Shown one piece after another: positions 1,742 through 57,758 of a stretch of 64,000 nt of DNA. The notes under the pieces were generated by a model. The model did no database searches. It worked only from the letters and a program-made list of their open reading frames with translations, and was not told the origin of the DNA. The DNA comes from Bryoerythrophyllum caledonicum (Eukaryota; Streptophyta; Bryopsida; Pottiales; Pottiaceae), in the NCBI GenBank assembly GCA_963971425.1, contig OZ020523.1:25091105-25155104 (forward strand). The letters run 5' to 3'. A program made the translations under genes and the position numbers. The number at the start of each line of letters is the position of its first letter. The stretch's first letter is position 1.

Positions 1742-3790
1742 CTATAGGTTTCTCTCACGTTCTAGCCAAGCCTTGACTTCTGGGGAAATATCGTTTAATA
1801 TAACGTCTAGTGCCGCGGCCCTTAGTCGTGCTTGATGGTATGTTCTTTCTTCAAGCAGATTCTCTTCTGCACTTCGAGCTTCTTGGATACCATCCAAACG
1901 CCGATATAATTGGTTGAATCCTGCAGTGGTGAGCGCCTCCTCTCCCGCTGAGTTGTAATGCGGTCCGTTTCCCATTCCCAGCAATAACATCATTCTCTCT
2001 CGATCGTAATGCCACCCCATTACGTTGTAGAAAAACATCTTCAAACCAAAATCCGGTGGTTGATTTGGATACATGCCCTCTGCCGCCTTCATTAAATTCT
2101 CTGGATCATTTAATGTGCCAGCTTCCTCATTTGCGGCAATAAGTTGTGCGGATGAGACGTTGTATCTCCAATTCCACGTGACAGGTTGTCCGACATCAGC
2201 ACCAATGTCAAAATCTGGGAAGTCTTCTTGGTGATACACCCAATGTCTTGGCATGAAATCCCGAAGGCCAAATTGAAGATACAAGCGGGCATGATAAGGC
2301 GATTTGCAAACCGTGCACGTACGCTTTGGTATCATATCCTCGATTAGACATTGAGGGTGGTACGAATGACCACATGATCCAAGCGTGAAGCACCCTTCTG
2401 GGCCACACAGATTTTGGCAAATGGCACACCGTGATCCATCATTGGTCTTCTCATCCACGTGGCCCCATATTTTATGGACATCTCCAATGCCACCAACCGT
2501 CTCGTGAATATTCCATCGGTGATCCTCTTCGACAATACGCTCCCAGTCAATGCTACCGTTGGCCTTAAACACTGGTGGATCTATGTCTTCCCAATTGCTT
2601 GGATACATATCATCTAACGTTGGCCAAGACGTGTGTAACAATGTTCTCAGCCTACCGTTGGTTGTCCACTCAGCAAAAATCTTTGCCGACTCTGCCTCGT
2701 ACTGCTTCGCCTTTGTCGAAGCTAACACCGTGCCTAGCATCATGGTGTCCTACTCGTTGTGGAGTTTGCTAACATCTCGTTGCAATTTAGTAACATCCAC
2801 CTCATATTTCGATTTTCGAATGTTTGCTTCTTGTAACTCGATGCGCAAATGGGCCATGTTGGCAACCAAATCGTTCTTCTCTGCTTCCACCGTCAATGTT
2901 TTCATCGCCGCTTCTCTTGCACGCTCCTCCATCAACGCCTTGTATGCAAAAAATTCCGCATTTAATTCTTAGTATCGTTGTGCCGTGCCATTTGTGATAT
3001 TGATGCGCTCGATACCATGTCCCACTACCTCGGTTTGTCCAAGCCCGGGAAGTTCACTTCCACCGCTAATTGGCGTGTTCGACTACACATCCATTGCATC
3101 GGTGTTGTGGATGCCAAGTTCATCATATAACTCGAATGGTAAAACCGCCACTTCTCGAGCTCTTGTTGCAGTAGCTCGTCTCTTTGGCAATTTTCGATCC
3201 GGTGGCAACGGTTGGTCCGGTGGATCAACCAAGCTACTGTTGGTGCGAAACAATTCTGGAACCGGGTTCCTCGGAATGTCAATGATGGGTTGCTTTGCGG
3301 AAAGTAGTGGGCCAAGAAACTTCCCAACATTGCCACCGGCGGTTATCGGTTGGTGAATTGTTGACCAATCAACCCGCCTGTGCAACACACACTCCGCATA
3401 TACCATGGCTCCTATCCTCCTCGGAATGCTATTTTTGGGCCAACGTCCTTGGTGAGAGATGGCTCGTAAAATCTCCAAGAACCTCCACTTCAAATCCACG
3501 TCGGTAATGGCATTCCACGAGAGTTGTCTGTTGCGGCAATGCTCTTCGTGAGATTCCTCCGGGTACCACCGATCGAGATGCGCAAAACCAACCAGGTTGA
3601 AGGCCTGCTGACATGTCCATGGCTCTGGCACATCTTCCCATCCATCGTACGCCAATAGTTTGGTGTTTCTAAAAATATCCATCTCCAAAGGCACCCCTTT
3701 CTTCGGTTTCTTTGACGAACCAGCTTCCGCGCTTGGCGCATTTGGCCTCCTTCGGCCCGCATCATCTCCACCACCTCCTTGCATTGCCAT
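1742..3790 (-). pseudogene. RING-H2 / coiled-coil protein gene, frame open except for UAR codons
   Basis: One minus-strand frame runs from an ATG at 3788-3790 to a TAG at 1742-1744 (about 683 codons). The N-terminal third is a basic GGGG/KKPKK leader followed by a Trp-rich globular stretch. The middle (about 2970-2700) is a strong coiled coil. The C-terminal third holds a RING-H2 finger near 2290-2430 (CAIC, then CGHSYH, then CTVC; C3H2C3 spacing), which suggests a ubiquitin E3 ligase. The frame is crossed by TAG 3083-3085, TAA 2969-2971 and TAG 2750-2752. No frameshift is needed, and the coiled coil reads through two of these if they are taken as Gln. Below 1742 UAR codons become dense, so 1742 is probably the true end. 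The family was not recognised. It is either a decayed gene or one needing stop readthrough. Confidence 0.65.
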
Positions 3791-4221
3791 TTTTTTCCTC
3801 TAAAATCTCCACCACCACGAAATGCTTCTAGTCGCTATCCTATACTGATTGACTAAGTCGGTAAACTAACTATTCTAATATGAAAATCCTAGCTGTAACT
3901 AAACTCCCATAAACACCCTAAAACTAATTGCACTTCAAAATAGTGCTAAAATAACCCCAAGCATGCACTTTAAAATAGTGTTGCGTAGGAGTGCATACAA
4001 ATGTTTCTAAAAAAACCGGCCTTCAACAGATCTCTGACGTCTTTGGTAGTTGTTCTGTTGCCTTTGAGGACAAATTCCCCCTTGAGGGAATCAATGTCCT
4101 CAAAAGGACCACTTTCCCACCTGGAAATCCCGCACACCCGCCGTCAACAAGGAGGCAAGTGCGTCAGAGCGCCCGAGAAAGTGGGAAAGAGTAACCTTGT
4201 TTTACTTCACCTTCCTTTTTA
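3791..4221. other. Intergenic, nothing recognised
   Basis: AT-rich upstream flank of the RING-H2 gene, containing a near-duplicate phrase (cactttaaaatagtg, with variants near 3930 and 3965). No gene or structured element was seen. Confidence 0.4.
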
Positions 4222-4780
4222 TACTGTAGCCGCGGCCCATCATCCGCGAGCTGTCCGCACCGGTCCATTCGGCCCATCCGCGGCCCATCCCAAACCGTAC
4301 GCGTCCCATCCCCGCCCCATCCGCGCCCGTTCGCTGCCCATCCGTTCCCCACCCACTCCCGTCCGCTGCCCATCCGCATCTCCCAGTCCGCTCCCCATCC
4401 GCGCCCGTCCGCTCCCCATCCGCTCCCCACCGGCTCCCGTCCGCTGCCCATCCGCATCTCGTCCGCATATCCCAGCCCGCTCCCCATTCGTGCCCGTCCG
4501 CTGCCCATCCGCGTCTCGTCCGCATCTCCCAGTCCGCTCCCCATCCGCGCCTTGTCCGCTTCCTAGTTCCCCTCATCTGCCCCCCATCCGCCCCTCGTTC
4601 GCGGCCCATCCGCGCCCATCCGCGCGCATCCGTGCCCCGTTTGCTTCCCCGTCCCCCTCCCATCCGTACCCATCCGCCGCCCATCTGCTGCCCATCCGCG
4701 CCACATTTGCTTTCGAGTGTGCAACCCAGTCCGCTCCTCATCCGCTCCCGTCTGATGCCCATCCGCTTCCACTTCTAAGT
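4222..4780 (-). repeat. GC-rich minisatellite, GCGGATGGG-type unit on minus strand
   Basis: A degenerate tandem array of roughly 11-17 bp units with core CCCATCCGC on plus (GCGGATGGG on minus). The Pro/Ser/Arg-rich and Gly/Trp-rich open frames here are artefacts of the repeat. The array at 10020-10600 has the same core in opposite orientation, so the two lie as inverted flanks of the hAT transposase gene. Confidence 0.85.
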
Positions 4781-4893
4781 ATTTGTGGGCAAGAATAGTT
4801 TTGTTTTGGTATGTGCTTGCATTGACAATGTGTCGCACTTTTGAAGATCTCCAAAAACAATTCCAAGCTCGGTGCTTCAAGATTATACGAGGA

Positions 4894-5125
4894 TGGAAAA
4901 TAAGAAATGAAGACTGAAAACCCGAATGGTAAAAAGACCGCTTATCCAGTACCTTAGTATGAATAGCATATTTAAAGTTTGAATTTTTAACATCTCCCTA
5001 AACATACGCAAATAAAGCTCTCCCATCATACAAAGATGGCAAATTAGGAAGTAACAAAGTCAACACCGAATGGTTGAGAACAAGACTAATTCATTAATCA
5101 ACAAATATTGTATAATCTTCTAGGC
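4894..5125 (+). repeat. Diverged direct repeat, copy 1
   Basis: About 230 bp matching 6144-6380 in the same orientation, with shared phrases such as ccgaatggt, aaataaagct, catacaaag and aggaagtaacaa. The spacing is about 1.25 kb. This is either an old tandem duplication or flanks of an old insertion. Confidence 0.6.
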
Positions 5126-5288
5126 AATGCACATAACATGAGAATTGCCGCCGAATACACGAAGGGGTAAATACCACCGCCAAGAGCTTGCCGACGAGCA
5201 CATGAAGTTCCTCACATCCCATCAAGGCACCTTAAACATTGTACTCCTCCCCAAACCACATGTGAAATTGCTAATCACTTCAAGAATC

Positions 5289-5291
<3 letters not shown>

Positions 5292-5342
<51 letters not shown>
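5292..5342. repeat. (TA)n microsatellite
   Basis: About 25 uninterrupted TA dinucleotides. Confidence 0.95.
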
Positions 5343-5346
<4 letters not shown>

Positions 5347-6380: not shown

Positions 6381-6501
6381 TAAACATCTATACTAATAAA
6401 TTGCTAAGAACCCTTTTGATATAAATTAAAAATATTATAAATAGACCTCGTCTTACGTGTATTGGGAAATTTAGACATCCCACTAGGACTTAAGTTCGCA
6501 C

Positions 6502-9500
6502 TCAAACTGTGGGGTCGTTTTCTTCTATGCATCGTGGATCCACATCGGACTCGTCTGTGCTCTCTTCGTCGTCGGATTGAGGAATACCACTTCTCAATTG
6601 TAAGTTGTCATCCCTAGTAATGACCAACCTCCTTGTTGGACGAGATCCCTCGGCGTCAAGTAACCCATCATCATCCAAATTGGGTCTTCCGTCTGATGGG
6701 TCGTAATCTTCACCAGTAAATGGAATTGTACTACCTTGATTCCTTCGACGTCTCTTTGTTCCTCGTGTAGTTCTCCGCTGTCTATTATTGCTTAGGATGC
6801 AAGTGGAAGCTGCTCCGCAATGTGGAAGAACTGTAGGTATGTGGACAACCACATTGAGGTCTACATCCGAGGAGGAAGCCATTCCTCTTAATACTATTCC
6901 AGACCCCCTCCCACCACTTTGCACGACATTGCCTTGTTGATTTTGACGAGCAAGAGGTTGCCTTTGCACGCTAGGAAGTTGAACGCTACTAAGCCTGTTG
7001 TCTTGACGACGATTTTGTCCCATTCCATTGCTGGGACGATCGTTATGAAGGGCTATCAATGAAGCACCAATCCCCCATGTAGTTATTGCACCGGTTCTAC
7101 CCGCAATTATATGACTACGGGTCACCGGCCGATGTGGTATTCCAACTTGGGAAGACGCTTCGATCTTTGTGGTTCTAGCATTCCCCATAACTTCATCAAG
7201 GGGCACGGTTACCCTTCCTATGATTGAAGTCGGATTACATTGTGGACTTGAATTGCAATTGCGAACCGACCTCGAGGGCGTTAAGGAGATACGACCAGCC
7301 GTTGTAGGGACCTCCACTTCTTGTTGATTCAAGATATGTTGCCCTTCATTACCAAATGATAGCCAATCACTTTGAGGTTGGGAAGGCAAGTCAACATTTG
7401 CTGGGATCGCCAAGTTCTGTAGCCCTCCTTCATGGTCACGCCAAAGTCCCTGACCAGCACAAAGTTGTCCAAACGACGGCCCATCATCATCTCCGCTCGG
7501 GTTCAATGGACCTTGAACATGTTGTTGTGCTGCCTCGACTTCGTTGAAATAAAAAATACCTATGTCTCCACCTCCACCATCACCATCAGAGTTTTGACCA
7601 TCCGAGTCCCACACGTCCTCGCCCACACGACGACCACCACCACCGCCATCATCAAAATCTCCACTAACCAAATCCAAATCCAAATTGTCTTCGTCTATGT
7701 CAAGATTACCTTCTTCGTCATTCTCGTTAGGATAACGTCCTTCCTCATTTGCATCGTCAGGATCTTCTCCGTTGCTTTCATCATCGGAATGCACACCATT
7801 TAACTCAAGCCATTGACCAACCCTTGTCCCCCTTTGATGCCTTAGGAGCCTAGAATTTGTGTAAATGTACACGAGGTCCTCCGCTCGACTATGTTTAAGG
7901 CAATTGCGGGACTTGTTGTGTACATAGGAGTACATGCTCCAATTGTGTTCGCATGCTGATGAGGAACACACTTGAGCAAGTATGCGTCTTGCAATTATCT
8001 GCAATGCCTTTGCGCCACCTCCCATTGCATCCCACCATTCATGGGGCAATACATTAAGCACATTTGGATCCATCGAATCTACAAATGATCCTCTATTTTC
8101 AATGAAGTCTTGGTATTGGTTGAGGACCCTTCCAAAATCTTACTCACTCGAAACTAACTTTCGAAGGACTTGATTTAAAATTGGTCTTGAATGCTCATTT
8201 TCATGCAAAGGGGCCCATCCTCGCAAAGAAGGATTTAACATAGCTCCCGCCCAATGAAGGTCAGTTACCATAAGCCCCCACCTCGCGTTAAAGGAATCTA
8301 GTGCCCGTGTTGCCAATTCTTGCCCCAATTGGAACGGGGCCCTGACAAACCCTTGAACATGGATTTCCAAATCATGCATAACCTTCCATGCAACGCCCAT
8401 AGCAGGAGCATTGCCGTCAAATACAGGAAGGGTACGTACCACAGGCAACACCATGTACTGAAAATTCACACATGTATCCCAAAACCCGTCGGAGCGTATC
8501 ACCTGCCGTGCAAACAAGCCTTTAATATGTGTAGCTGGGGCTTTTGTCCGCAACTCCGCCATGAAAGCATGCCATGCGTCATCAACCACCATTCTCTCTA
8601 GGGCTTGGCGAACTTAGAGGAGGCGTTCAATCATGATGAAATTGGTTGCAAATCGTGTCTCATTGGGCATACGAATAGCAAGATTTGGTGATAGCCTTTG
8701 GAAGATTGCTTGTGGAGCGTGGTGGTTCTTGATGAATAAACAAATAACCCTAGCCTTCCTCACAATCCTTTTCATCCAATTTTCTTTGCCCCAATCCTCC
8801 AGTAAAAGATCCAAGCAATGAGTAGCGCATCCTTGAACATAGAGATGGGGAATCGCTTGCATGATGTCACGGCAAGCAGACGCCATGACTAGAGCGTTAT
8901 CGGTGCATACTTGGACAATATTTTGGGGCCCAACTGTTTGCAAAAACGGTTGGATTTGAGAAGCAACGTAGAAGTGGTCCTTATAATTTCCCGATGTATC
9001 GATGGTGCCCAGGAAAACATCCCCTTTCGTGCCTTACTGAACAACATTTAGCAATGGCCGATTTTGAACGTTGTCCCAACCATCACTACATATTGTTACT
9101 CCATACTTTGATATAGAGTCACCCATTTTCTCTTTGATCCCCCTTTCTAGATCTGCTCTCTTGTTTGTCAACAACTTCGTACGAACGGCGTTGTAGGACG
9201 GTGGGTTGTATGCCAACATTCGTACGCGTGCAGTTTCACGAACCGCTTTTAAAAAAGCAGGGTGCCTAATGATATTAAATGGAATGTTTGCTTCCTAAAA
9301 ATCACTAGACCAAACCATATCCAAAAGTTGTTTTGCATAAGAGTTGAACCCCTCGGTCAAAGAAAGCTGTCGTAGCTCTCTAGGTTCAGTCTCTATCCGT
9401 GTCGGTTCCACGTCACCAGTGCTTTGCAAATTTTGAACTTGCTCCATGTCATTGTTATGAGACAATGATAATAAAGGTTCCACCCGAACTTCATCCTCGC

Positions 9501-9783
9501 CGGCTCTGTGAAAGGTTAAATTGTTGGCAACATCAAGACGATCCCGGACACCCCCATCACATTCTTAAAACAACACATGCACATGTGGAGGCACCATCCT
9601 ACACACTTGAACATCACCTCCTGCCTCGTTACGAGGACGGTACCCCATGTGGGACAACATCATGTCCGCTCTATAGGACATGGTGTGAGAACAAAACCGA
9701 CATTTTACTTGTCGTGCAGATCTTAAACAAGTGAGACCCATGTCATCGTACCATAGATCCCATACAGAATTCCGATGCGGCAT
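6502..9783 (-). pseudogene. hAT-family transposase (BED finger, DUF659, hAT dimerisation) with long acidic tail
   Basis: A single minus-strand frame of about 1094 codons runs from ATG 9781-9783 to TGA 6502-6504. Domain order: BED-type zinc finger (CRFC, then H and C residues, about 9690-9600); DUF659 core (PFNIIRHPAF near 9270, CSDGWDN near 9080); second catalytic Asp in CTDNAL (about 8900); hAT C-terminal dimerisation block with SSSACEHNWS (about 7960) carrying the catalytic Glu. All three RNase H-like acidic residues are present. An Asp/Glu/Gly-rich tail of about 400 residues follows, which is unusual for hAT. The frame is crossed by TAA 9565, TAG 9295, TAA 9034, TAA 8614 and TAA 8140 (low coordinate of each codon), with no UGA and no frameshift. 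In each case Gln would fit. It is either a young copy decayed only at Gln codons or a recoded gene. TIRs were not found with confidence. Confidence 0.85.
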
Positions 9784-10019
9784 GGCGTAGCAAGAATGAA
9801 AGTGCCACTAAGGGCTCCTCAAACCTTCCTCAGCAATGGCGTCTCATGCAATGCATTCTTGTACAAAGAATCCAAGGTCTTGAAACGCACTAAGCGAGAA
9901 TAAGTAAGGTCACCCTAGGAAGATAGGAATTTATACTAGACTTCGTACGGAGCATGCAGACGGCTGGGCGCTGATGAAGTAGGGTCGAGCGGACGTAGCC
10001 AGCGGACCGGCGAAGGACC
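9784..10019. other. 5' flank of hAT gene
   Basis: Upstream of the transposase ATG the frame stays open to TGA 9844-9846 apart from TAG 9811-9813. This is probably leader sequence. No promoter motif could be assigned. Confidence 0.4.
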
Positions 10020-27792: not shown

Positions 27793-28620
27793 TTAAAAGC
27801 GGAGATTCTGAAACGCTTGGATTGCGTTCCAGATACTCGCAGGTTGACCACACGTCTTCTGATCAGTATAAAACATCTCCCGGCTAGAGGGATGTTCGGC
27901 CCGGTACTGCGCTAGACCACCCGGAAACTGATGAAGGTCAGAGAGATATGGCAGCAATTCCTCCAACAATACAGAGTCGTCTCTCGCGCCACCATGTTTG
28001 TGCGACCATGATGGAAGAAGAAGGACGTTCTCCGGCAAATTGAGCATGTGCTTAATCGGGCTGTCGTCAATGACAAGCGTATTTGCCGGAGTATACTCAC
28101 AACCCAACCTATTGAAGAGATGGCTCGATAAGGTCTTCAAGAAGATGTCCTTCTGAGTGCCAGATTCCTTCATGTAGAATGTTCTGCTACCGACTCTACG
28201 CTCGGGAACCCTATCGCAACTCTCCTGACCAAAGATCCTGAGAGGGTACGAAGAACTATGCTGAAAAAGATAATTACATATCTGACGCGTTGTAGATTCC
28301 ATCATCGAACTCCAGATCGTGATGGTGGCAATCTTCGACAACTTCGTAAGGAATTCAGCACAACCAGGGCGCACTCGAACTAGTTTAGGGCCTACTTCGG
28401 CCGGCAGCGAAGCCGAGTGAATGGACGGGATAGAGTCCCTGGATCCTCTGGCCTGCCACGACGGCTCACACGTGCATAGAATCCCATTGAGGTCCAGCAC
28501 AATGTTCAACCACCTGCCCTCGATATCTTATTGGACTCTAGGTATTTCTTCTAGATTATTGGCATCACTTATTGATGCCTTGCCGACTTGGTTCGGAAAC
28601 GCCAAGAGAACGACCAATAT
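27793..28620 (-). CDS. FCP1/NLI-interacting-factor-type HAD phosphatase-like protein
   Basis: The frame carries HAD motif I as IVLDLNGIL (28500-28475), a Trp/Ser motif II region (TIWSSM) and motif III as LVIDDSPIK (about 28065). FCP1/SCP-type enzymes dephosphorylate Ser, for example on the RNA polymerase II tail, using DxDx(T/V). Here the second Asp is Asn (DLNG), as in a plant subgroup I recall, so catalysis is doubtful. There is no ATG just before motif I. The frame runs upstream in coding-like fashion (NQVGKASISDANNLEEI) through TAA 28528-28530, and the real start may be on an upstream exon. It ends at TAA 27793-27795. It lies directly downstream of the ParB/methyltransferase-like gene, and fusion to it cannot be excluded. 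Confidence 0.7.
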
Positions 28621-30172: not shown

Positions 30173-30202
30173 CTGCACACGAATGGATTGAACAAGATTC
30201 AA

Positions 30203-42232: not shown

Positions 42233-42322
42233 GAAGGTCCACCAATCCCTAGTCCCGAGGTAAACACGTTCCCGCGTGTCGAGAAGCTAGGGGGAGAGGG
42301 GCATTACGATTTATGGGCGGAC

Positions 42323-44491
42323 TTGAGTCGCCTCAAAGCGGACATCACCATAGCCCAACTATTAGAGGTGTCACCACCCATAAGGAAGTCCCTTAGGTCG
42401 GGTACCCCGGTGAAGCGAAGGCCTAGGGCAAGGGTCCGGGTGGCGATTCGGGTTAAATCCGCACACCCCAATATCGAGGTCAAGGCGGTACAAATCGAGG
42501 TTTCGATTGTGGACAAGATCGTACCTAATGTACTAGTAGACGGTGGTAGTTAGTTGAACATCATGCCCCTCTCAACCATGGAGAAACTAGGCCTTGACAT
42601 CACAGAACCTTCACCGTGCATCATCAACATGGCAAATCAAAGCTCGGAGGCCCCGTTAGGCCAAATTAGTGGTTGTAAAGTGACCACGGGGGGGATAGAG
42701 TATTCCCTCACCTTCCAAGTCATCCGAATGCACTCCAACAAGGAGGCATACCCCTTGCTACTAGGTAGGCCTTGGTTGCGGATTGCCAATGCCACCGTAG
42801 AATGGGGGGGGCCAAAACCAAACATCACATATGGTCCACCGGAGAACCCTACTACAGTCCATATCCAACCAAGTAGGCTAGGAATATGCCGTGGTTGCAT
42901 GGGCTCGTCGGAGGATGAATCACAAGAGGTACTATCAAAGGAGCCTCCCAAATGGGTGAGGTTTGCGCCCCACAAGGCGGTGGATCGAGCCCAACCCTCG
43001 AAGGCCCACGTAATGCCATTTAAAAGCATGGGACCGGGCCTTTATGAGTGGGTTCCCACCGGGGAATTTGTAGACTCGTTGAGGGAGCACCCTACCTCGA
43101 GTGCGGATGAAGCCATGTCCGTGCATTTCATGGAGAGTGAGCTCATTGGAAGGGAAACCGGGTTGGAACTTAGCCTAGTTCCCCTCCTCGATGACCTAGA
43201 ACCCTCGGCGGTGTTTGGAATGGATGTGGAGGGCACGCAAGGGGACGAATTGGAGGTTTTGGGAGACGAAGGCCCTCTCAACCCATCTCTCCACTTCCGC
43301 AGGACATCCACCGGTATCCTAGCTAGTCGTTCGGGGGCAACATACCCCAAAGTTCCGAATGATTGGTACAAGGGACCTACCCAACAACCACACGTTCATC
43401 ATGATGATTGGAAGTTGATGGTGGTTTCTCATGAGCAGGATGAGGTCCGTAGTATTAAGGTGGGCGTTGGGTTGACCGAGGAGGAGATGGTGAAATACAA
43501 AGCACTAGTGGTCGAGTTTGAGGACATTCCCCCGGCGGTAACACAACATCACATCCCCCTTCTCCCAGGCACTACTCCCATTAGACAAAAGGAGCGGCGT
43601 ATGAATCCTAACCTACAGCTCATTGTCAAGGCCGAATTGGAGAAGCTCCTCCAAGCGGGGTTCATTAAACCCGTAGAGATATCCGATTGGGTATCCCCCA
43701 TGGTATTGGTTAAAAAGAAAAACGAGAAGCTACGGGTGTGCATTGACTATAGGAAACTCAACCATCACACCCAAAAAGACCACTTCCCCTTGCCATTTAT
43801 CAAAACCATCTTGGAGGAGGTAGGTGGTCATGATCTTTATACGTTTATGGATGGCTACTCGGGCTACAATCAAATCTCCATTGCCCCAGAGGACTATCAC
43901 AAGACCACCCCTCATCACCCTCAAACCAATGGACACACCGAACGGGTCAACCAAACCCTCGTAAACATCTTGAGGAAAACGGTCACCGATTCCAAGAGGG
44001 ATTGGGACACGAAACTCCCCGCCGCGTTATGGGCTTACCGAACCACGTTCAAAGTGACCACCCATGCTACTCCCTTCTCATTGGTGTATGGCATTGAAGC
44101 CATTTTACCCATCGAGTTCGAGATCCCCTCTCTGCGAGTGGCCGTGACCGAACGATGGTCCATGGCCACGTCCTTAGCCGATCGGTTAGAACGATTGGAG
44201 GAGCTCGACGAGATGCGCCCGTGGAGCGCCCAAAACATGGAAGCCATCCAACGAATGAGGAAGATTGCCTTCGACAAACAGAACAAGGTCCGATCATTGA
44301 GACCGGGAATGCTAGTCCTCCTTCAAGACGCGAGGAGATTGGATTTTCTAGGGAAGTTCGATGCTTTGTGGTTGGGACCCTATCTCGTGAAGGAGGTCTT
44401 CCCCAACAACTCCGTTCAACTTCAAACCCTAAACGGCGAGGATTTCCCCACGCGAACATCGGGCAACCGATGCAAAGAGTATAAAGTGTGA
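42323..44491 (+). mobile_element. Element B pol region, fossil
   Basis: Protease (VDGGS near 42540), reverse transcriptase segments (KKKNEKLRVCIDYRKLN near 43730; FMDGYSGYNQIS near 43850) and integrase-type HPQTNGHTERVN (43920), then a C-terminal GPYLVKEVFPNNSVQL segment. It is Ty3/gypsy by order and motif. The product looks incomplete, in the same way as in A, so both copies probably came from an already defective source. Confidence 0.85.
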
Positions 44492-44635
44492 TTTATTCAC
44501 GACCTTCACAAGTGGACCTCCACATTTTGGTACTGCCATGGGTCATTCGAACACAAAAAAGGTAGATATTGACCGTGTGCCCATGAACAAGAGTGGGTTC
44601 TCTGCCTCTTCGAGTAGTCCCAGATGGCCGCCATG

Positions 44636-46276
44636 TGTGAGCCGCAAAAACGGCTCACGGTGATGAATGGACCTCACGTCGGGTCCATTAAGGCTAATGA
44701 GTGGTGAAAATGGGTTATCCCATGGACTAGCTCGTGGTTTTTTGATTAAAATGGCCAAGTGGCCTTTCCCCTCACTAAAAGAGGAGCCATTTATGGGCAA
44801 TCGCGGAATTTATTTAGTTAGCCAAAAAAGAAAAAAAAAAAAGGGGAATAAACCAGAAAAGAAAAGCAAAGAGAGAAGGGAAAAAAGACACAAGAAAATT
44901 AGAAAAGAATTAAAATGAGTAGTGGTGAAGAAGAATTTACCTCCTATCGAGTTGTAGACCATATTCGGTCACGATGAAGAAATCACGAAACCAAAAAAAT
45001 TGGGAGAAGAAGAAGGAGGATGGTGTGGAGAAAAGAAAAAAGAATGGGGCGTTAAAAGCCCTTAAAATAATAGTCAAAAGGGTCCAAAAGAAGTGGAAAA
45101 GAATCCTCATCAATCACTAAGTAAATTAGGAATTACCCCAAGCAAGGGGAATTCAATTTAGGTAGGTTAAATTAGATTTTTGCACCTTTGAAAATTACCT
45201 AATAGCTCACTTCTTGAGATCATGCACACACATGTGGCATGGAGTCAAAGTTTAGATTTAGATATTCCTTGGTTAGTGGGACACCCACTTGTGTTAAATG
45301 CAAGGGTGGCTAGTGAATTATTGCTTTTTAGTTACTAGTTGTTTAGTGTGACCATTAATGTGCCCACCCAAATTGGCGGCTGTGAACGACGAAGGGAACG
45401 ACCTTGGGAACAAAGAAGGGAGCAAGGGCCTTGGGGTTACCCCCTTGGAGGCGCTCATTTGGAAGTGTGAGAGGTAGGAGTGAGAGAGGTGTGTGGTAGG
45501 AGCTAAGAAACCGAGAGAGGTGTGGAAGGAGAGAGAGAGGTAGGGTTTAGATTTCCCCCTCCTGTGGGCTGGAATGTGATTCAATCGTTGCGAAAATAGA
45601 AGAGTAGATAGATTAGAAAGTTGGCTTTCCAACAAGCTCAAGAACACGCCGATCAGAGCTGTGACGACGAAGATACGAGCGGTGGAGTGAGGACAACCAG
45701 CTGGAGGATCGGTGGCGGATCTCATACGGCCTCACGTTTTCCCTCGTCAGTAGCGAAGTTCTTGTCCAATCGAGCTAAGATTTTAGAAGTAGATAGATTA
45801 GAACGTTGGCTTTTCAACAAGCTCAAACACGTGTGGATCGAAGCTGTGACGACGAAGAGACGGGCGGCAGAGTGAGGACGACCAGCTGGAGGATCGGTGG
45901 CGGATCTCATACGGCCTCAGGTTTTCCCTTGTCAGTAGCGGAGTTCTTGTCTAATCATGCTGATATTTTAGGAGTAGATAGATTAGAACGTTGGCTTTCG
46001 AACAAGCTCAAGAACGCGCGGATCGGAGCTGTGACGACGAAGATACAGGCTGCGGAGTGAAGAGCACCAACAAGAGGAGCAAGATCACGAGCTGAACAAG
46101 AGGAGCAAGATCACGAGCTGACCAAGCAAGTCGAAGGCTAAGGATGGAGGGTGAACCGAATTAACTCAGGGAGCCCCTTTTCATTTTTCCCACGAACCTC
46201 TTCAATTCCATGTGTATGACTTGAACCCTAATTTTCTAAATACAAAAACCACGCGGAAGCGCTGCCAACTTTTCGG
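44636..46276 (+). repeat. LTR of element B, 3' copy, partial
   Basis: Matches the first about 1.64 kb of the 5' LTR, with about three units of the 185-bp repeat. It joins directly to element A gag. Confidence 0.88.
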
Positions 46277-47882
46277 TATTATCGGAGGTGGGGTTACGCG
46301 CACCTGTCAAATGATCTTGGGCTTGTTGAGGATAGTTCCCTGGTGGAAAGGGCATGGGAATTATCTTGTCCGGTCTACGACATACTTGGGTAGGGTGATT
46401 ACCCCCGCAGTTATCGCATACCACCCCACTTTCGACCCAACATTGCCCTGGTGCGTGTCTCTTGCCACACGGTTGATGGATTTCATACCGTGGTCTCGGA
46501 GGTCCCCCATAACCTTGGCTTGGAGATGCATAGCCTTGAGGCACGTAGCTAGTTACTGTCGGTGGTTGGTTCCTATGAGGAGGCACATACGGAGGTTGAG
46601 AAGCTTGGTGTTGGGGTGCTGCCACCGGAGTGGTACAAAAAGGGCTGGTGTGGCCTGGTTGACCACATTGAGTGCACCATAAGCCCGAAGCATGTCTACC
46701 GGATTCTATGGGTGGAGGCGTGGGGTTAGGGACTTGGTTCTTAATCAATAAGGCCATTTGGTCTTGCATGGCCTTGATTTGTTGAGCTAATTGATCCTGG
46801 AAGCCCTGTTGGCCTTGAAGGATTTCGTTCTTCATTTCCTCCTTCTATGTGCCCCGCTCCTCATGATAGGTGAGCTCAGGAAGGGCTACTGGTGGCCTAA
46901 CGTTCAAGGGTGGGGCGTAGTAGTTCCACGTAGGAACTTGTGCGCCTGTGGATCCTTGGTTACGTTCTAAGACTGGTCCCTTACCCTTGGCATGGATGGG
47001 TATGAAACTAGGAATATGGTGATCCTCCTTCCTCCACATGCGCTCTTGGTCTCGATCCACCTGCTCTATTAGCCTAGCTTGTGCCTTGGCCTCATCTAAC
47101 GATGCGGGGCGGACCTTCAAAATCTCCCTAATGGTTCCCTCATTGTTGAACCCTTGGATAAAGAACTGGGTTAAGGTGTCATTGGTGAGGAGGTTTCCCA
47201 CGAACCTTGTAACCACCAGGTCGAATCTCCTAATGTATGTCGTGATATCCTCCCCTGGACCTTGGCGTAGCGCGGCTAGGGCTGTGAGGGCATTACTTTG
47301 ACCTACTTCGGGTCTAAAGTGCTCCAAAAAGGCCCTTATGAGGCTATCCCAGTCCTGGAAGGTGTTGGGGGGGTGGTTCCTATACCACTCGTAAGCGGCA
47401 TCCTTTAAGGTACACGAGAACCACACTAGGAAATACCCGGTGTTGGTGATGAGACAAGTAGTGAGGAGCTCTAGAAACCGTTCCACATGTGCGGAGGGGT
47501 CTTCATCCCTAGTTCCTCTAAACGTGGGCAAATTGGGTGGCATAGGCGCCGCCTGTAAGCCTTCGGGTACTACAATTGGTAAACCCCTTGGCTGAACCAA
47601 GGGGTTGATGGGAGGCCGAACCGGGGGTGGCCCTCCAGAGGCCATGGTAGGGGTTGAGGTGTTGCCTCGTGGACTAGTGGTGTTGGTGGTGTTCACTGGA
47701 TCAAATGCAGGGATAAGGAAAGATGGGGGAAAAAGAAGGGGAGGAGCTGGGATAGCCTCTAGCTGAACCTCAAAGAATCCTTCCGCCGTGTCCTCAGTGA
47801 GTTCCCTAGACCTAGTCCTTTCACTCGCCGGTTCCCACGGTGGTGTGAGGGAAGGTTTTTGGGACCTTGTGGCACGGGACAT
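46277..47882 (-). mobile_element. Element A gag region
   Basis: Mirror of the gag of element B, with the same retrotransposon gag motif and both zinc knuckles. It is near-identical to 40046-41650. Confidence 0.88.
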
Positions 47883-49372
47883 CTACTCTAAAGTCTAAGA
47901 GAATCTTGTTGTGTGTTGATGATGGTCATGTTCCCCCGAAAGATTTTCCATCCAAGGTTTAAGGGTCGTGGGTGAAACTACACGAAGCACGGCCTAATTC
48001 GATCGGTGAGTGGATGTTTCCAACACTCCTACTCCCGATTCTATCACGAGGATGGACTGACCCAAGACCAAGACCCAATTTTTAGTGGTGGAGTTTTAGC
48101 TCGATGAAGCCGCCGAAGAATCCTATTAAGGACTACCCTCCAAGGGCAAACGACAAAAAGCTAACCGAATTGAGGGATGTCTCCACGAGCATCACCCCGT
48201 TGGAAAGCTGTCCCCCAACTGGCGCCACACGGTACAGATCCTTACTGTGGGGCTGACCCAGACCTCAATTTGATAAAAGGTGGGGTTCCTTAGTATCTTT
48301 GGTATCCCCCCTTCCACCTTTTACCACCTTGAACTAGGCATTACCCACTAGGAGGAAAACGACTCAATCACGGGACGGCATGCAACAAGGTGTGTATACA
48401 ATGTTATCACTGTGAAGAAGACATACCTCGATGCATCTCCAGCCACCCTGTCACCATTAGTTGAAGTCGACCGTGGACCTAATCGCACTCTATCGATGCT
48501 AAGGCCAACCAATAAGTCACATACAATGTTATAGAGGGGGATAACTTACCTTGAAGCAACTCCAGCCAATCCACTTGTTAGCACAAGATTTGTTGCATGC
48601 AATTTCGTGGTTGGCCAAACCTAGCGGTTCTAAGGCAAGTGTTCCACACGGCTCAAGTAGGAAATCAGGGTTTTCTAACCCTAGTGTGGTCACCACATCC
48701 AAGTTGGTCCTATTTACTACTCGTGGTCCTACAAAGAGGGTGTAGTGCACATACCGTACGCAGCGCTCCTTCCAAACAGCACCCCTACGTCTTGGATGCG
48801 TCCGCGACTCCAACTCCCCTCCAAGTGGCTCATTCACACATACATTGCCTTAACTTGCAACTTTTGATTCAACCATTCCAATTACACCAAGTTGTTCTTA
48901 CCTTGGTGGTTAGTCAAGCGCGGGGGGAAGAAAGGGGCGCCCTTGTCCCATACCCGGGCACTTGCACCCTTCCCCTTCGGCCTAGGAGCTCACTGGAATT
49001 CTTACGAACACCGTGGGAGGGCCTCAATCTTTCACTCCTAGGCCCCTTGCTCGACTCAAAGCCACAAGACTAGAAGGGGATCCTTCCAACACAAGGTGTT
49101 TTGTGGTTGGAAGGTCGGGAAACCACACTCCCTTCTAGACCCCCACCTTAAAACACAACTTGGCACGTTCATTCATTCACAAGACTTTCAAACATGCACA
49201 CAATTGGCACTCAATCAACCATTCATGAGCAAGGTTGGGCACTTACCTTTAAGCCACCCGATGCCGCTCCTTACACCATGAGTCTCTTAGCGTTTGTACC
49301 CCTACATCCAACGGTAGAATAATTAACACAATCAAACAATGAGCACGCCTCCTCCTGGCAGACGCACCAAAA
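47883..49372 (-). other. Element A leader (PBS to gag)
   Basis: Reverse complement of the leader of element B. It holds no independent gene. Confidence 0.6.
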
Positions 49373-51753
49373 TGTGAGCCAAATAAACCGCCCCCTAATG
49401 GGGTGGCTTATCTTGAACACAAGATCCTACATATGGGATGCAGCCCCTTGTGCAAACATACTTTAACCATTCATACAAGCATGATGACCCAAGGCGTGGT
49501 CACTTAAGAGGGTTCGTTAATAATTAGTGATGTGATGGCTGAATTGAGCCTTAGGTTGAATCCAACCTTTAGACAAGCGTAAATTCCGCCTCAAAGCTTT
49601 GTTTCCAATGTTTTAAAGCTCCATTAGGTTCAATTTTGCCTTGTGAACTTGATTAGCACCTTAACCACCAATTCCAGGCCCAAGTGCAACCCTAACAGCA
49701 GCAACCAGCAGACAGGCTCCTCTTTTTATGTTAAAAGTTTAATTCTTCATTATCTTCGTGATTATGACTCCGTTTTTTACGTTTGTTTTTTGTACTCTTA
49801 TTAGTTTTTCTTGCTTAACACGATGGCAGCCTTCAATTGATCATTTGACTCGACCCTGGACCTCCCAGCCAGCGACCAGCAGTGCACCTTCAACATATGA
49901 CTTTATTCAAGATCATGCACCACATTCCTATGCATATATCACATTCATTCACAGAAGAATCCACCCCAGCCTTACTAAGAGTAAGCGTCCAGCTGTGTTC
50001 ACTTACTAATGGCGCTCTAATCGGTTATTTAGTTGAATATATAGCAAACCCTAATTCTACCGAAAAATTGGCAGCGCTTCCGCGTGGTTTTTGTATTTAG
50101 AAAATTAGGGTTCAAGTCATACACATGGAATTGAAGAGGTTCGAGGGAGAAAAGAAAAGGGCTCCCTGAGTTAATTCGGTTCACCCTCCATCCTTAGCCT
50201 TCGACTTGCTTGGTCAGCTCGTGATCTTGCTCCTCTTGTTCAGCTCGTGATTTTGCTCCTCTTGTTCAGCTCGTGATCTTGCTCCTCTTGTTCAGCTCGT
50301 GATCTTGCTCCTCTTGTTGGTGCTCTTCACTCCGCAGCCCGTATCTTCGTTGTCACAGCTCCGATCCGCGCGTTCTTGAGCTTGTTAGAAAGCCAACGTT
50401 CTAATCTATCTATTCCTAAAATCTTAGCCCGATTGGACAAGAACTCCGCTACTGACGAGGGAAAACCTGAGGCCGTATGAGATCCGCCACCGATCCTCCA
50501 GCTGGTCGTCCTCACTCTGCCGCCCGTATCTTCGTTGTAACAGCTCCGATCCGCACGTGTTTGAGCTTGTTCGAAAGCCAACGTTCTAATCTATCTACTC
50601 CTTAAAATCTTAGCCGGATTGGACAAGAACTCCGCTACTGACAAGGGAAAACCTGAGGCCGTATGAGATCCGCCACCGATCCTCCAGCTAGTCGTCCTCA
50701 CTCTGCCGCCCGTATCTTCGTTGTCACAGCTTCGATCGGCGTGTTCTTGAGCTTGTTGGAAAGCCAACTTTCTAATCTATCTACTCTTCTATTTTCGCAA
50801 CGATTGAATCACATTCCAGCCCTCAGGAGGGGGAAATCTGAACCCTACCTCTCTCTCTCCTTCCACACACCTCTCACGGTTTCTTAGCTCCTACCACACA
50901 CCTCTCTCACTCCTACCTCCCACACTTCCAAATGAGCGCCTCCAAGGGGGTAACCCCAAGGCCCTTGCTCCCTTCTTTGTTCCCAAGGTCGTTCCCTTCG
51001 TCGTTCACAGCCGCCAATTTGGGTGGGCACATTAATGGTCACACTAAACAACTAGTAACTAAAAAGCAATAATTCACTAGCCACCCTTGCATTTAACACA
51101 AGTGGGTGTCCCACTAACCAAGGAATATCTAAATCTAAACTTTGACTCCATGCCACATGTGTGTGCATGATCTCAAGAAGTGAGCTATTAGGTAATTTTC
51201 AAAGGTGCAAAAATCTAATTTAACCTACCTAAATTGAATTCCCCTTGCTTGGGGTAATTCCTAATTTACTTAGTGATTGATGAGGATTCTTTTCCACTTC
51301 TTTTGGACCCTTTTGACTATTATTTTAAGGGCTTTTAACGCCCCATTCTTTTTCTTTTCTCCTCACCATCCTCCTTCTTCTTCTCCCATTTTTTTTGGTT
51401 TCGTGATTTCTTCATCGTGACCGAATATGGTCTACAACTCGATAGGAGGTAAATTCTTCTTCACCACTACTCATTTTAATTCTTTTCTAATTTTCTTTTG
51501 TCTTTTTTTCCTTCTCTCTTTGCTTTTCTTTTCAGGTTTATTCCCCTTTTTTTTTCTTCCTTTTTGGCTAACTACATATATTCCACGATTGCCCATAAAT
51601 GGCTCCTCTTTTAGTGAGGGGAAAGGCCACTTGGCCATTTTAATCAAAAAACCACGAGCTAGTCCATGGGATAACCCATTTTCACCACTCATTAGCCTTA
51701 ATGGACCCGACGTGAGGTCCATTCATCACCGTGAGCCGTTTTTGCGGCTCACA
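49373..51753 (-). repeat. LTR of element A, 5' copy (about 2.38 kb)
   Basis: Same ends as the 3' copy, with about three units of the 185-bp repeat against six in the other LTR. It is followed by the target duplication CTCAC (51754-51758). Confidence 0.9.
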
Positions 51754-52045: not shown

Positions 52046-52064
52046 AAACTGCAGGGATGCTTAC

Positions 52065-53431
52065 CACACTCGTTGTCAGTAATTTCGTCCCGCCAAACGG
52101 CTGGACAACAGAATCCCCCTCTTGCAGAATAGCTCCAGGACCTTGATGAAGAACTCCATCCTCAGCTCGTTCAAATTCATGGAGTACGCCAACTCGTTGT
52201 ACTTGCGCAGCTTCGTGTACATCAAATGCTCTGGAGCTGCGTAGATCTTCTTTACGGCCGGGATCACCGTAAGCTCCTTCTTGAAAAGAAAGAGGAGCCG
52301 AACCGGGTCTAGAGCGTTGTTGGTCTTCCGCGCGAATCCTCCGAGGCGCTCGTTCTCGGAGGGAAGATACTTCAACTGCAGCACATCGTATGCATGGCAC
52401 AACGACGGGCCCTCAGCAAACGCTGTCACTTGAAGGTGTGACTGCTCGTTGCCGCAAATGAAGAGCCAGGCTGGAAGATCGGTGAGGGGAGGCTGCCCTT
52501 TCGATGCGAACATCGTCATGAACTCGTCGAAGAAGGGCCTCTCCAACGACGACGATGACGTCCCAGAGAACCCAGGGATGTTCCGGAAGTCGATGATGCC
52601 GAGCTTCACATTGCAGCCCAGGTTGCGCCACGAATCCGAAGGCAACGTCTCGAGCGAATTCGTTGCCGCCTTGTAAGAACGGAAGTGCAGGGCTCCTACT
52701 GGTGAAACGAACCGCGACCGCACATCGATGAAGACTCTGAAGAACTCCTTCGCGTACGGAGAGAGATCTTCACATTTGCAGTTGCGAAACTGCGTCTGCC
52801 TCGAGTTAGCGTAGTATGAATCCGGTGGACCCCAATCCAAGAGGGTCCGCTTGGAGGCCTTGCTGACGTTGTAGTTCTTCTTGAACGTTCGCCGGTTTGA
52901 ACGTCTGTACGCTCCAGTGCTGTTGAAGAAGGCCAGCTCCGGCCTGATCGATTGAAGCTCCATCCGAGCGACCTCCTTCCTCTTCCTCTGATCCACCCAG
53001 TCCCGGGCTGTATAGCAATCCTCCAGCGCAGAATTTGGCAGCTTGATGACCACCTTAGGGTAGAACAGTTTTCGGGATGGCCCTGACCGATTGAGAATGT
53101 GCTTGCACATTTTTGCGTGATCGGCTTCGGTCATGTTGCCGAGAAACTTGAAGAACTCGCGCGTCAGGACCCCATCCTTCTCAGGAACCCAAGACTTAGC
53201 GTCCTTGAACTTTGCCAAGGGCGTCGAAGTTGAATCGACGTTGATGAGGTCGCCATGCGCCGCAGAAGAGATGACATCGGACCAGAGCTCGAAGGTCTCA
53301 TCTGTCGCGGTAATGATCTTCACCTTGTTCGTAATTGAAAGCTCCTTCGTCTTCCCGGCTTTCTTGAGCGCCGCCCGGCTCTTGGCAACGTCGATCATTG
53401 CGAAGCGCTCACGAACCGCGTTAAGAAATGG
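52065..53431 (-). CDS. ParB/methyltransferase-like gene, exon 5: amino-methyltransferase-like domain
   Basis: The acceptor CTGCGCAG is at 53432-53434 and the donor GTG|GTAAGC ends the exon at 52065. It encodes about 455 residues. A catalytic-motif-like TLLDWGPPDSYY lies near 52850. The C-terminus (ELAYSMNLNEL, then VLELFCKRG, then DSVVQPFGGTK) resembles the GDxVxDxFxGxGT SAM-binding motif of N4/N6 amino-methyltransferases, in catalytic-then-SAM order (beta-type). The last about 20 residues need a frame change at a G-run near 52115: the exon length is 1 nt short of phase 0, and without it the frame meets TGA 52076-52078. The DPPY motif is divergent, so activity is uncertain. Confidence 0.6.
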
Positions 53432-53509
53432 CTGCGCAGAACATAAAAGGGTCGTTTGAGTATACAATAAAGCAGGAATACAAACATGTCCAGTAGGGTC
53501 CAAATACTG

Positions 53510-53635
53510 CAAGTTAGCTCGAGTCGAGCTAACTTGCGACCCATGAGCAGACAATGACGATTTCTTATCTATACCTATGATTGTACAGATACATAGCGAA
53601 TTTGCACTTTAGCTCGAGTCGAGCTAAAGTGCATG
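53510..53635. repeat. Two palindrome copies in intron 4
   Basis: TTAGCTCGA-S-TCGAGCTAA copies at about 53515 and 53609, about 95 bp apart, in the short intron between exons 4 and 5. Confidence 0.85.
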
Positions 53636-53656
53636 ACATTAGTTAAGATATATTAC

Positions 53657-54743
53657 CTCAAACCTCTTGTCATTTGCAATCTCCGCTACCGTTCTCCGAC
53701 CTGACTTGTGAGAACCGCGAACGCCTGTGGCGGAGTGCTTTGGCATTGGTCTCCCAGCTTGGATCCACAAAGCACGGGAGCCAAGGATATTTGTTGCCCA
53801 CGTCAGCTTGAACTGGACCAAGTGATTCACACGATTATAATACGCGGAAATCTTCCTCACCTTCTCCGGATCTTGCGTCCAGACAATGTAACATTGCCAT
53901 GTTCGGAAGTGCCTTCTCATCACCTCCGGAATGTTGCCGTTAATCATCTTCTTTGAGGCAGTAATGCAGTGCTGGCCGTTGATGATGTAGAAGTCGCAGT
54001 CGCTGAGCTCCTCCACAGTCGTCGGCATAGTGTCGAGCTTCGGCATGACGCAGAGAGTCTGCTTCTGCGTCTTGTCTGGCATTTGGAGGTAGTAATGCTT
54101 CAACTCCTCCATGCCCTGAGGCTCGAACGCACGGATCGTCTACTCCGGCGGTGCATTATACAACCTCATCACGTCAAGCTCGATCTTCATCTCTCTGTCG
54201 CCTTTGAAAAAGCAGCTCTGACACTTCGTCTAGAATTTCTGGTAAATCTGTTGGACGTTGTTGTAGTCGATTGTCTCTCCGTATCCGAGCGCCTTAGGGA
54301 GCTCCGAGAGTGCAGAGGCCATCGAATTGGCTAGCTCCTCCTCCGATACGAGCTTTGACTTCTTTCTTGAAGAGGTTTCCGGCTTTTTGGCAGCTGAGCG
54401 CTTCTTGACGGGGGAAGCAGACAGCGTGTTGCGCAGAGTGCTTCGACTTATTCTCGCACCTGGAGTTCTAACCGGTACCGACGCTTGACTCATGCCCTGG
54501 CTACCGGTCACGGCCCCCGAAACCGTTGAAAGTTCTATCGGGCATCTTGCCGCGATATTCTTCGCCTTATCTAGAGCGGCAAAGGTACTCATTCTAGATA
54601 AAATGACGCACAGTTTATTAGCTATAGCCTTTGCTTTCAGTGGCTGTCCGCTACTAGTCTCCCATTTCTTAAGGGAGATCTCATGCTCGACCTGAGTCAC
54701 TATTTCCTCAAATTTGGAAGACCTAAGAGAATCGACTAAATCC
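53657..54743 (-). CDS. ParB/methyltransferase-like gene, exon 4: ParB/Srx-like domain
   Basis: Ends at a TTTGAG|GTAATA donor (53657) in phase 0. The first half is Ser/Lys-rich with a nuclear-signal-like KKRSAAKKPE and RKKSKL. Then comes a ParB-type segment: APPE-x-TIRAFEPQGM, a helix (MEELKHYYLQM), LCVMPKL, and the hallmark YIINGQHCITASKKMI (about 53985-53940), equivalent to the ING.HR..A motif of ParB. A basic C-terminus (GSHKSGRRTVAEI) follows. TAG codons lie at 54230-54232 and 54140-54142 with no frame change, and Gln fits both. ParB domains bind CTP/DNA or act as nucleases. In phages and mobile elements they are often fused to DNA methyltransferases, as seems to be the case here. Confidence 0.6.
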
Positions 54744-54767
54744 AGGATACAGAAGGGAGATGAACTA

Positions 54768-55537
54768 TCATACTACTAAAATCATAATCCACGCAGTGAA
54801 CCACGTAGTCAACCGTGCGGTGAACTACATAAACAGTGCAGTCAAACGCGCAGTTAATTGCGTAGTCAACCGTGCAATGAACCATGTTACCTTTTTTATT
54901 ATTTATAGTTTGTATTATAAAAACTACATTATAATGGTTGGACATATGCGTTGCAAAGCAAGCGCCAATTGCAAGGAACGGTGCAGCCAACCGCACAGTG
55001 AATCATGTTACCTTTTCTTTAATATAGTTTGTAATATAAAACCACGCAATGAAGTTGGAGTTGTGATCTTGGAGGTTGGCATACAAAGTTGGAGTTGCAA
55101 AATTGCATATTCGAGTTGTGGAGATTGAAATTACAAGTTTTGAGGTGAGATTGCAAGTTTTGAGATTGTAATTGCAAATTGAGTTTGTGGGTGTATAAAA
55201 TTGAGATTGTAATTGCAAGTTGAGTTTGTGGGTGTGTGAAATTTGCATTTGTGTGTTGCAATTTGTGCTTACCCAAAATAAATTTGAAACTCTTAATTAC
55301 AAATTTGACGTTCATAACCTTTTTGAAATTCCATGTTAAAATGCAAAAAAATCTAAAACGTAATTAATTTTTTTCTATTCTATTCTATTACATTATTAAA
55401 ATTCATGCGTAGGTTTCAAAGATATATTTATATTTTATGTAGATTGTTGTTACCTTTCTTTTTTTAATATTTTGTGATTTAAAAACTACATGAAAATGGT
55501 TGAACTAATGCGTTGCAACGCAAGCGCCAATTGCTAG
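54768..55537 (+). mobile_element. Helitron D (770 bp) in an intron
   Basis: Starts A|TCATACTACTAAAATC at 54768. It ends with a GCGTTGCAACGC hairpin, then AAGCGCCAATTG, then CTAG at 55537, followed by T. The 3'-end sequence also occurs internally at about 54908-54972 (GCGTTGCAAAGC variant), so the element may be a composite. It is AT-rich, non-coding and non-autonomous. Confidence 0.7.
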
Positions 55538-55545
55538 TTGTTTAC

Positions 55546-55873
55546 TATTATAGTAAAGAAATACGGATCTAAGGACTCGGTGGTCGTCTCACACGACAAC
55601 TTAACGTGATCGTTATCTTCGTGGACTACATCAGGAACTTTGGTCTTGAAGTCGATGTGCTGGGGATCGACGATAGCACCAGCGAAGGTCTGACCAAACA
55701 CTAAATGATCCGTATAGGTCGCCCACAGAAGCGTCTACTTCAGTGTCATCGATGGGTCCTTCAGCTCCCAGCAATCTAAGTGGTTGTTGTCGTCCCCATC
55801 GTCATCGTCAACGTCGACAGGCTTTGGCTGGAAGAAGTCCTGCAGCTGCGACACCATCCTGTCCCTCTCAGAT
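55546..55873 (-). CDS. ParB/methyltransferase-like gene, exon 3
   Basis: Starts after a TTTGTGCAG acceptor (55874-55876). It encodes about 109 residues: MVSQLQDFFQPKPVDVDDDD, WELKDPSMTLK, then TLLWATYTDHLVFGQ and an FAGAIVDPQHIDFKTK stretch. TAG 55735-55737 interrupts it between SMTLK and TLLWA, where Gln fits. It is too broken for a simple open-frame scan but clearly coding-like. The donor at ATA|GTAAAC is tentative, and phases to its neighbours are not fully resolved. No domain was recognised. Confidence 0.5.
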
Positions 55874-55943
55874 CTGCACAAACACGAAACAGAGCAAAGA
55901 TATTAGATTGCTCTAATGATCATCCGATTAGGACGGCGAGGTC

Positions 55944-56790: not shown

Positions 56791-56820
56791 TGTGACCTCG
56801 ATAGTGTATTACAGTCTACA

Positions 56821-57053
56821 CTTTAGCTCGACTCGAGCTAAAGTGGGACTTTTCTGTCCACATTTGGCCGACTTTAGCTCGACTCGAGCTAAAGTGTGCC
56901 TCCACTGTGCACTAATATCCACACTTTAGCTCGAGTCGAGTTAAAGTGTGGCCAAAGGTGCACAGAAAAGGCCCACTTTAGCTCGACTCGAGCTAAAGTG
57001 TGGACAATAGTGCAATATGGATTTCCGACATTAGCTCGACTCGAGCTAAACTG
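56821..57053. repeat. Palindrome array, 5 copies at 51-53 bp spacing
   Basis: TTAGCTCGA-S-TCGAGCTAA starts at about 56822, 56873, 56925, 56977 and 57031. The outer bases extend the palindrome (CACT...AGTG). Intervening DNA is partly shared (GTGTGG, TGCAC). Confidence 0.92.
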
Positions 57054-57159
57054 TGTTCAATGAATAGCGTATTTATCGCAGATTGTACAGATTCGTCATT
57101 CGTTACATGATACTGAAGGCGTAGGGTTTAGGGCTCCTAGGTGAGAGTATGGATTTTAC

Positions 57160-57217
57160 CTTTCAGCCATTGCTTATGAACCTTAATCCCAGACAAATTC
57201 TGCTGGAACTAGACTTC
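57160..57217 (-). CDS. ParB/methyltransferase-like gene, exon 2 (58 nt)
   Basis: Acceptor TTGTTGTTGCAG, donor AAAG|GTAAAA. In phase 0 it reads EV-x-FQQNLSGIKVHKQWLK with x = TAG 57209-57211. The phase matches the preceding exon. The alternative frame has two TAA codons. It is a small exon supported by splice signals only. Confidence 0.45.
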
Positions 57218-57231
57218 CTGCAACAACAATT

Positions 57232-57560
57232 ACAAACCCACACACAAAATCAATCAAAGTAGCACATGGAAACCAAAACATTGAAATCTTTCACATTGAA
57301 ATCAACACTTTGAAATGGGCACATTGAAATTCAGCACTTTGAAATAAACACATTGAATTCAGCACATTGAAACAATGACATTGAAACCAGCACATTCAAA
57401 CTAGCAAAAAGTAGCACATTTACACCAGCACAAACCAGCACATTTAAACTAGCACAGACCACCACAAATATCCACAAACCAGCACAAAACCACCACATTC
57501 AAATCACCATTCAAATCATCACATTCAAACCAGCACATTGAAACCAATACACACTCTCAT
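57232..57560. repeat. Degenerate tandem repeat, ACCAGCACATTGAAA-type
   Basis: Loose 10-20 bp units (CAGCACATTGAAA, CCAGCACATTCAAA) in the intron between exons 1 and 2. Confidence 0.8.
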
Positions 57561-57680
57561 CTACGTGGTGACACATACATCAAAAGTAATGCTACACATA
57601 TATTATGTTTCGACACATCATATCAAAAGCAAAACTACACAAATATCAAAAGAAATGCAAGACTGAATGAGTGCACTTAC

Positions 57681-57758
57681 CTTTAAAACTGAGAAATCCG
57701 ACTGGAAAAGCTGGAAGTCTTGTTACTTGTTCACGTCAATCCTCCACGCACGGCCGTT
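57681..57758 (-). CDS. ParB/methyltransferase-like gene, exon 1 (first one seen)
   Basis: Ends at a perfect AAAG|GTAAGT donor (57681). The frame in phase 0 to exon 2 reads AWRIDVNK-x-QDFQLFQSDF with x = TAA 57723-57725, and it is limited upstream by TGA 57759-57761. No ATG is visible, so the true first exon or start is unknown. Confidence 0.4.

Follow-up and report, generated by a model that had tools for sequence, protein, structure and literature searches.

In-frame UAA and UAG codons in a 64,000-nucleotide moss window most probably mark decayed mobile elements under the standard genetic code

Ciliates and some green algae have nuclear codes in which UAA and UAG (together UAR) are read as Gln (NCBI table 6). 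A plant-type genome recoded in this way would be a major surprise, and the evidence given below speaks against it. A second type of system is found in the transposons of wheat, where, according to the portion of the article available (PMC2996936), transitions are in excess at CG, CHG and CHH sites (H, any base except G) and are ascribed to deamination of methylated cytosine. Here we consider a window, that is, a whole stretch of 64,000 nucleotides from Bryoerythrophyllum caledonicum (C11:25091105-25155104, contig OZ020523.1), for which a first-pass annotation had named 16 in-frame UAR codons and no UGA and had offered three options, namely (a) that UAR is translated as Gln or otherwise read through, (b) that methylated sites had decayed by C-to-T change, and (c) chance. 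On re-reading, the minus strand has eight TAA and eight TAG at the 16 positions named. The whole assembly (437 Mb in 894 contigs) was searched for relatives of the interrupted frames. We conclude, with a probability of about 0.95, that these frames represent decayed members of two mobile families of high copy number that use the standard code, and that their stops were gained mainly by methyl-cytosine deamination together with ordinary mutation. The first family would be a hAT element that also carries RING and kinase genes, and the second would comprise ParB-like, methyltransferase (MTase)-like, coiled-coil-like (coil) and FCP1-like frames.

The hAT transposase gene occupies 6490..9807 on the minus strand and is open in the majority of 24 relatives, which were obtained by fetching the best 30 hAT rows and dropping the window copy and five copies of less than 90% identity. 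The window copy matches Dimer_Tnp_hAT (PF05699) with 43 bits against a cut-off of 21.4, a C9 relative matches DUF659 with 123.5 bits (cut-off 34.7), and a protein search of the same genome finds at least 79 hAT rows dispersed over many contigs. At the premature stops 9565, 9295, 9034, 8614 and 8140 the relatives carry Gln, Tyr, Ser, Gln and Glu, respectively, with 22-24 copies in agreement at each site; the stop at 8614 is present in one relative also. The gene had been described as ending in UGA at 6502. This column, however, reads CGA in 16 of the 22 relatives with data (CAA in 3, AGA in 1, TGA in 2; two have no data), so that UGA 6502 is premature and the real end is TAA 6490, which is shared by 22 of 22 relatives with data. 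The hAT gene is followed downstream by a decayed RING-H2-like gene (1661..3799, minus strand; at least 66 rows by protein search); every match of the Pfam RING models to the window copy is below cut-off. Its stops 3083, 2969 and 2750 correspond to Glu, Gln and Arg in four relatives (Pro in one copy at the third site) and again in a fifth. At UAG 1742, previously taken for the end of this gene, the C9 relative has Gln, and TAA 1661 is the end common to both. The kinase-like gene (24875..26252, minus strand; at least 126 rows by protein search) is interrupted by UAA 24998, which is Gln in 3 of 3 relatives, and its family end TAG 24875 is likewise the same in 3 of 3 relatives. The frame changes in the window copy near 25300, and the Pfam kinase match is below cut-off in this copy and above it in the C9 relative.

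For the second family, also on the minus strand, Trp is found in a relative at UAG 54230 and 54140 of the ParB-like frame (53639..54772) and at UAG 55735 of a first-exon frame (55542..55902). UAG 29549 of the coil frame (29210..30250) is Gln in a relative. UAA 28528 lies in an FCP1/NIF-like phosphatase frame (27793..28530; PF03031 with 68.3 bits, cut-off 21.8) and would, as a putatively exonic codon, correspond to Ser in the C10 relative. The remaining two named codons, UAG 57209..57211 and UAA 57723..57725 on the minus strand, are apparently non-coding. They stand amid stops in all three frames, the C10 copy, which is 93% identical, keeps both, and no gene was found around either. The description of the codons as lying inside otherwise open genes therefore fails for these two.

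Alignment of each of the other 14 codon columns to relatives, as the first-pass annotation had advised, gives Gln at 5 sites, Trp at 3, Glu at 2, Ser at 2, Tyr at 1 and Arg at 1, and Gln at 6 of 16 if 1742 and 6502 are included. The expectation that Gln would fit nearly all sites is thus not borne out. With the same two additions to the 14 named codons, the premature stops number 15 UAR and 1 UGA. Codon-by-codon scans covered 1090 codons of hAT (against relative L023), 682 of RING, 105 of ParB exon 1, 872 of the ParB-like and MTase-like frames, 311 of coil and 438 of kinase, and showed no premature stop in the scanned frames beyond the named ones and 6502; 1742 was added by a later comparison. 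Outside these scans are the FCP1 frame, the part of the kinase gene that lies upstream of about 26194, and position 53639. At 53639 a UAA of the window is matched by Gln in the C10 relative, and five codons further on both have UAG. This possibly coding codon is excluded from the counts; with it, Gln would be found at 7 of 17. UGA 52076 is also excluded from the premature stops, since towards its end the MTase-like frame departs from that of the C10 copy.

CGA-to-UGA change, which had been reported as not seen, occurs once in the window and frequently elsewhere. In the 25 hAT copies (24 relatives and the window) there are 58 distinct stop events, 22 to UGA, 20 to UAG and 16 to UAA. By origin, CGA to UGA accounts for 9 and is joint commonest, with CAA to UAA at 9 and CAG to UAG at 8, while TGG to stop accounts for 11. 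Internal stops were also counted in the six families with the window row omitted; it may be noted that these counts are from the matches listed only and are therefore lower bounds, and that the rows share ancestry and are not independent. Taken together, 200 of 644 internal stops are UGA. As UGA/UAG/UAA, the counts are 56/53/25 for hAT (78 rows), 48/27/30 for RING (65 rows) and 47/49/38 for kinase (125 rows), where UGA is of similar frequency, and 15/66/9 for ParB-like (108 rows), 24/46/29 for MTase-like (83 rows) and 10/66/6 for coil (125 rows), which lean to UAG. A similar frequency of UGA in other copies is what the first-pass annotation had named as refuting its observation, and hAT, RING and kinase show it.

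Reassignment of UAA and UAG to Gln, or their suppression by a tRNA that reads them through, is an explanation that gains from all 16 named codons being UAR, from the prevalence of UAG in three of the six families, and from a single tRNA-Gln-like gene with a CTA anticodon. We nevertheless regard it as refuted, as the relatives carry mixed residues at the stops with Gln at only five of 14 sites, UGA interrupts the same hAT gene and is common in other copies, and UAR closes conserved genes. Regarding the last point, 12 of the 29 loci matched by histone models were read. Five H3 genes end in TAG, TAA, TGA, TAA and TAG, and three H3.3-type last exons, two of which are near-duplicates (96% identical), end in TAG. 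UAR is therefore the terminator in seven of eight H3 ends, each directly after the conserved last residues, which is consistent with the standard code and not with UAR being unused at host gene ends. Outside this count are a divergent H3-like locus (L055) with an internal TGA and a TAA end, and two near-identical H2A-type loci and one NF-Y-type locus, all with TGA. From their sequence and exon structure, the H3 genes are probably those of a streptophyte. Among tRNA genes, an anticodon-arm pattern gave 11 matches, ten with Gln-type anticodon letters; ARAGORN accepts seven as tRNA-Gln, all CTG. A TTTAA match on C15, considered as a suppressor tRNA, was not accepted by ARAGORN. A longer YTA tRNA-Gln pattern with up to three mismatches returned the same seven CTG places and the CTA gene (C7:22382197-22382269; L076:198-270), which ARAGORN accepts and labels Pyl. 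Neither of the two patterns, which screened tRNA-Gln types only, found a tRNA-Gln with a UUA anticodon. Compared by eye with a CTG gene, the CTA gene has five differences, of which three are C-to-T or G-to-A and one is a pyrimidine in the T-loop, at a position where tRNAs usually have a purine. It could be an amber suppressor, but looks more like a decayed copy, and since Gln is found at only 2 of 8 premature UAG (29549 and 1742) it cannot rescue the pattern.

With the majority base of the 25 hAT copies taken as the ancestral state, the 24 relatives have C-to-T rates per site of 0.0527 (CG), 0.0445 (CHG) and 0.0161 (CHH), whereas the rate of A/T transitions is 0.0043; the values for the window copy are 0.061, 0.080, 0.0155 and 0.0016. 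That CG and CHG sites exceed both CHH sites and A/T transitions is the pattern expected of methyl-cytosine decay, and we infer from it that the cytosines of these copies are methylated. The copies would have been silenced after insertion, presumably no longer being translated, and would then have gained stops, for the most part through deamination of methylated cytosine in CG and CHG contexts, along with ordinary mutation. Ten of the 16 premature stops need a single C-to-T or G-to-A change (six from Gln codons, three from Trp, one from CGA), one needs two, and five are transversions. Random point mutation in dead copies, with no part played by methylation, would suit these five and also the transversions found at all sites in the relatives, but it is improbable given that in the 24 relatives C-to-T at CG and CHG exceeds the rate of A/T transitions ten- to twelvefold. 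Further, 9 of 14 CGA and 8 of 12 CAG codons carry a C-to-T stop in one or more of the 25 copies, against 9 of 44 CAA, although the copies share history and the counts are not independent. C-to-T decay, proposed as option (b), is thus the likely main cause of the stops and not the sole one. Several observations weigh against decayed copies under the standard code as the complete explanation. The five transversions are left unexplained by deamination, and transversions in the window hAT copy are raised at C/G sites (19/1637 against 5/1848 at A/T). Residues at the ParB-like, coil and FCP1 stops are known from one relative only. The CTA tRNA gene described above has to be counted here too, as has the strong lean of ParB-like, MTase-like and coil to UAG in other copies as well. 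Lastly, UGA makes up only 1 of the 16 premature stops in the window where 5.6 would be expected (P 0.008 with family rates and 0.021 with the pooled rate). The lean to UAG may be explained in large part by the available codons, few being CGA and more CAG: one relative has, for ParB-like, MTase-like and coil, respectively, 2, 2 and 3 CGA, 10, 7 and 9 CAG, and 7, 8 and 0 TGG. For the scarcity of UGA, a local mutator acting on the window, or selection avoiding UGA, would draw on the same P of 0.008. We give this next to no weight, as the window hAT copy shares the excess at CG and CHG with its relatives and has one CGA-to-UGA change. For the codons as originally viewed, with UGA at 0 of 14, P is 0.0024, which speaks against plain chance, yet this set was picked for its odd look; UGA is also absent from 4 of 23 hAT rows and 1 of 14 RING rows with at least three stops. 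We attribute the scarcity to chance in a small sample, to the way the examples were chosen and to 6502 having been taken for the real end of the gene; option (c) is retained in this combined form.

The extra stops themselves are ordinary inactivating mutations in old mobile DNA. The part worth a second look is the association of the hAT gene with the RING and kinase genes. Among the matches listed, 50 of 79 hAT rows have a same-strand RING row within 15 kb downstream and none has one on the opposite strand only, 35 of 66 RING rows have a same-strand kinase row within 30 kb downstream, and 28 hAT rows are in full triples. The remaining rows may be truncated, split by inserts, or outside the matches listed. 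For one pair taken from two subfamilies, the ratio of nonsynonymous to synonymous substitution (dN/dS, NG86) is about 0.25 for RING (a rough value, with a dS of 1.3) and 0.20 for kinase, and both genes look to be under selection. The three genes thus apparently form one large multigene hAT element. We give even odds to this being an undescribed kind of large hAT transposon, in which RING-H2-like and kinase genes are standing parts co-selected with the transposase, possibly controlling the transposase or host silencing. Transposons of the hAT superfamily are usually thought of as single-gene elements, and because of this a multigene hAT would, if true, be of importance with its kinase and ubiquitin-ligase-like genes. 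The ends of the element were not found; hAT transposons are bounded by short terminal inverted repeats and duplicate 8 bp of their target, and the inverted repeats seen here are not assigned to ends. By titles and abstract openings, no multigene or giant hAT element of plants was recognised among the papers found; a paper on Ectocarpus (PMC12477816) contains both 'hAT' and 'giant transposon'.

The single order and strand of hAT, RING and kinase can be seen, for example, at window 1661-9807 and at C9:606001-634000 (L071-L073). The C9 locus also has, on the minus strand, a second divergent hAT (39% identity; L071:1371-4526) and a second RING (40%; L072:7340-9418). Among the matches listed, the window kinase is closest to copies of 84-93% identity, several of which are downstream of a second hAT subfamily (76% identity), and the nearest hAT and RING rows of this subfamily lie outside the window, at C11:25170111 and 25165955. 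Minisatellites of GGATGGGGAGC type are present on both sides of the window hAT gene, at 4270-4800 and 10060-10400, and similar DNA is present in the C9 copy.

The second family is represented in the genome by at least 109 ParB-like, 84 MTase-like and 126 coil rows (protein searches). The ParB-like family has at least 108 further copies of 89-94% identity, with MTase-like and coil frames adjoining in the C10 copy, and with an FCP1-like phosphatase in addition. The names ParB and MTase, both taken over from the first-pass annotation and the latter used for the frame at 52076..53608 (minus strand), lack Pfam support: the MTase-like frame has no Pfam match and the ParB-like frame only a sub-threshold match to a Tc3 helix-turn-helix model, and a match above cut-off is absent from 3 of the 4 frames of this family tested. 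The C10 copy has the ParB-like, MTase-like and coil frames next to each other on a single strand, whereas in the window they are split by a block of about 21.5 kb (30228..51752) that resembles a long terminal repeat (LTR) retroelement, its frames having been named by eye. The block has TG...CA ends with the same five bases at both flanks, and the C10 copy has the empty site, so the flanks look as they would after insertion of an LTR retroelement. Inside it, frames of the same translation (345 aa and 163 aa, by eye) are found in opposite orientation at 38855-41083 and 46845-49073, and LTR-retroelement copies appear to be inverted around 44 kb. A further 773 bases (54769..55541) have no counterpart in the C10 copy, through insertion here or loss there. 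At 56000-57060, a short motif translated as ARVELK or SSSRAK was seen by eye in many repeats of both orientations.

A few decayed transposon copies, when read alone, can therefore mimic codon reassignment, and it is the same columns in other copies that settle the question. The hAT copies show the same C-to-T context pattern as the decaying wheat transposons, as far as given in the part of that article available (PMC2996936), with the difference that one hAT family in one genome is concerned here and that methylation is deduced from sequence. To the UAR=Gln code of ciliates and green algae the likeness consists of UAA and UAG inside frames and a possible UGA end, and the difference of mixed residues in the relatives, an internal UGA, and UAR at real gene ends. 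With the giant eukaryotic transposons (PMC6431247) the proposed hAT unit shares, from the portion of that review available, large size and several genes in one mobile unit; the main text of the review is without the whole words 'hAT' and 'kinase', whereas in the unit described here a hAT transposase appears to be accompanied by RING and kinase genes.

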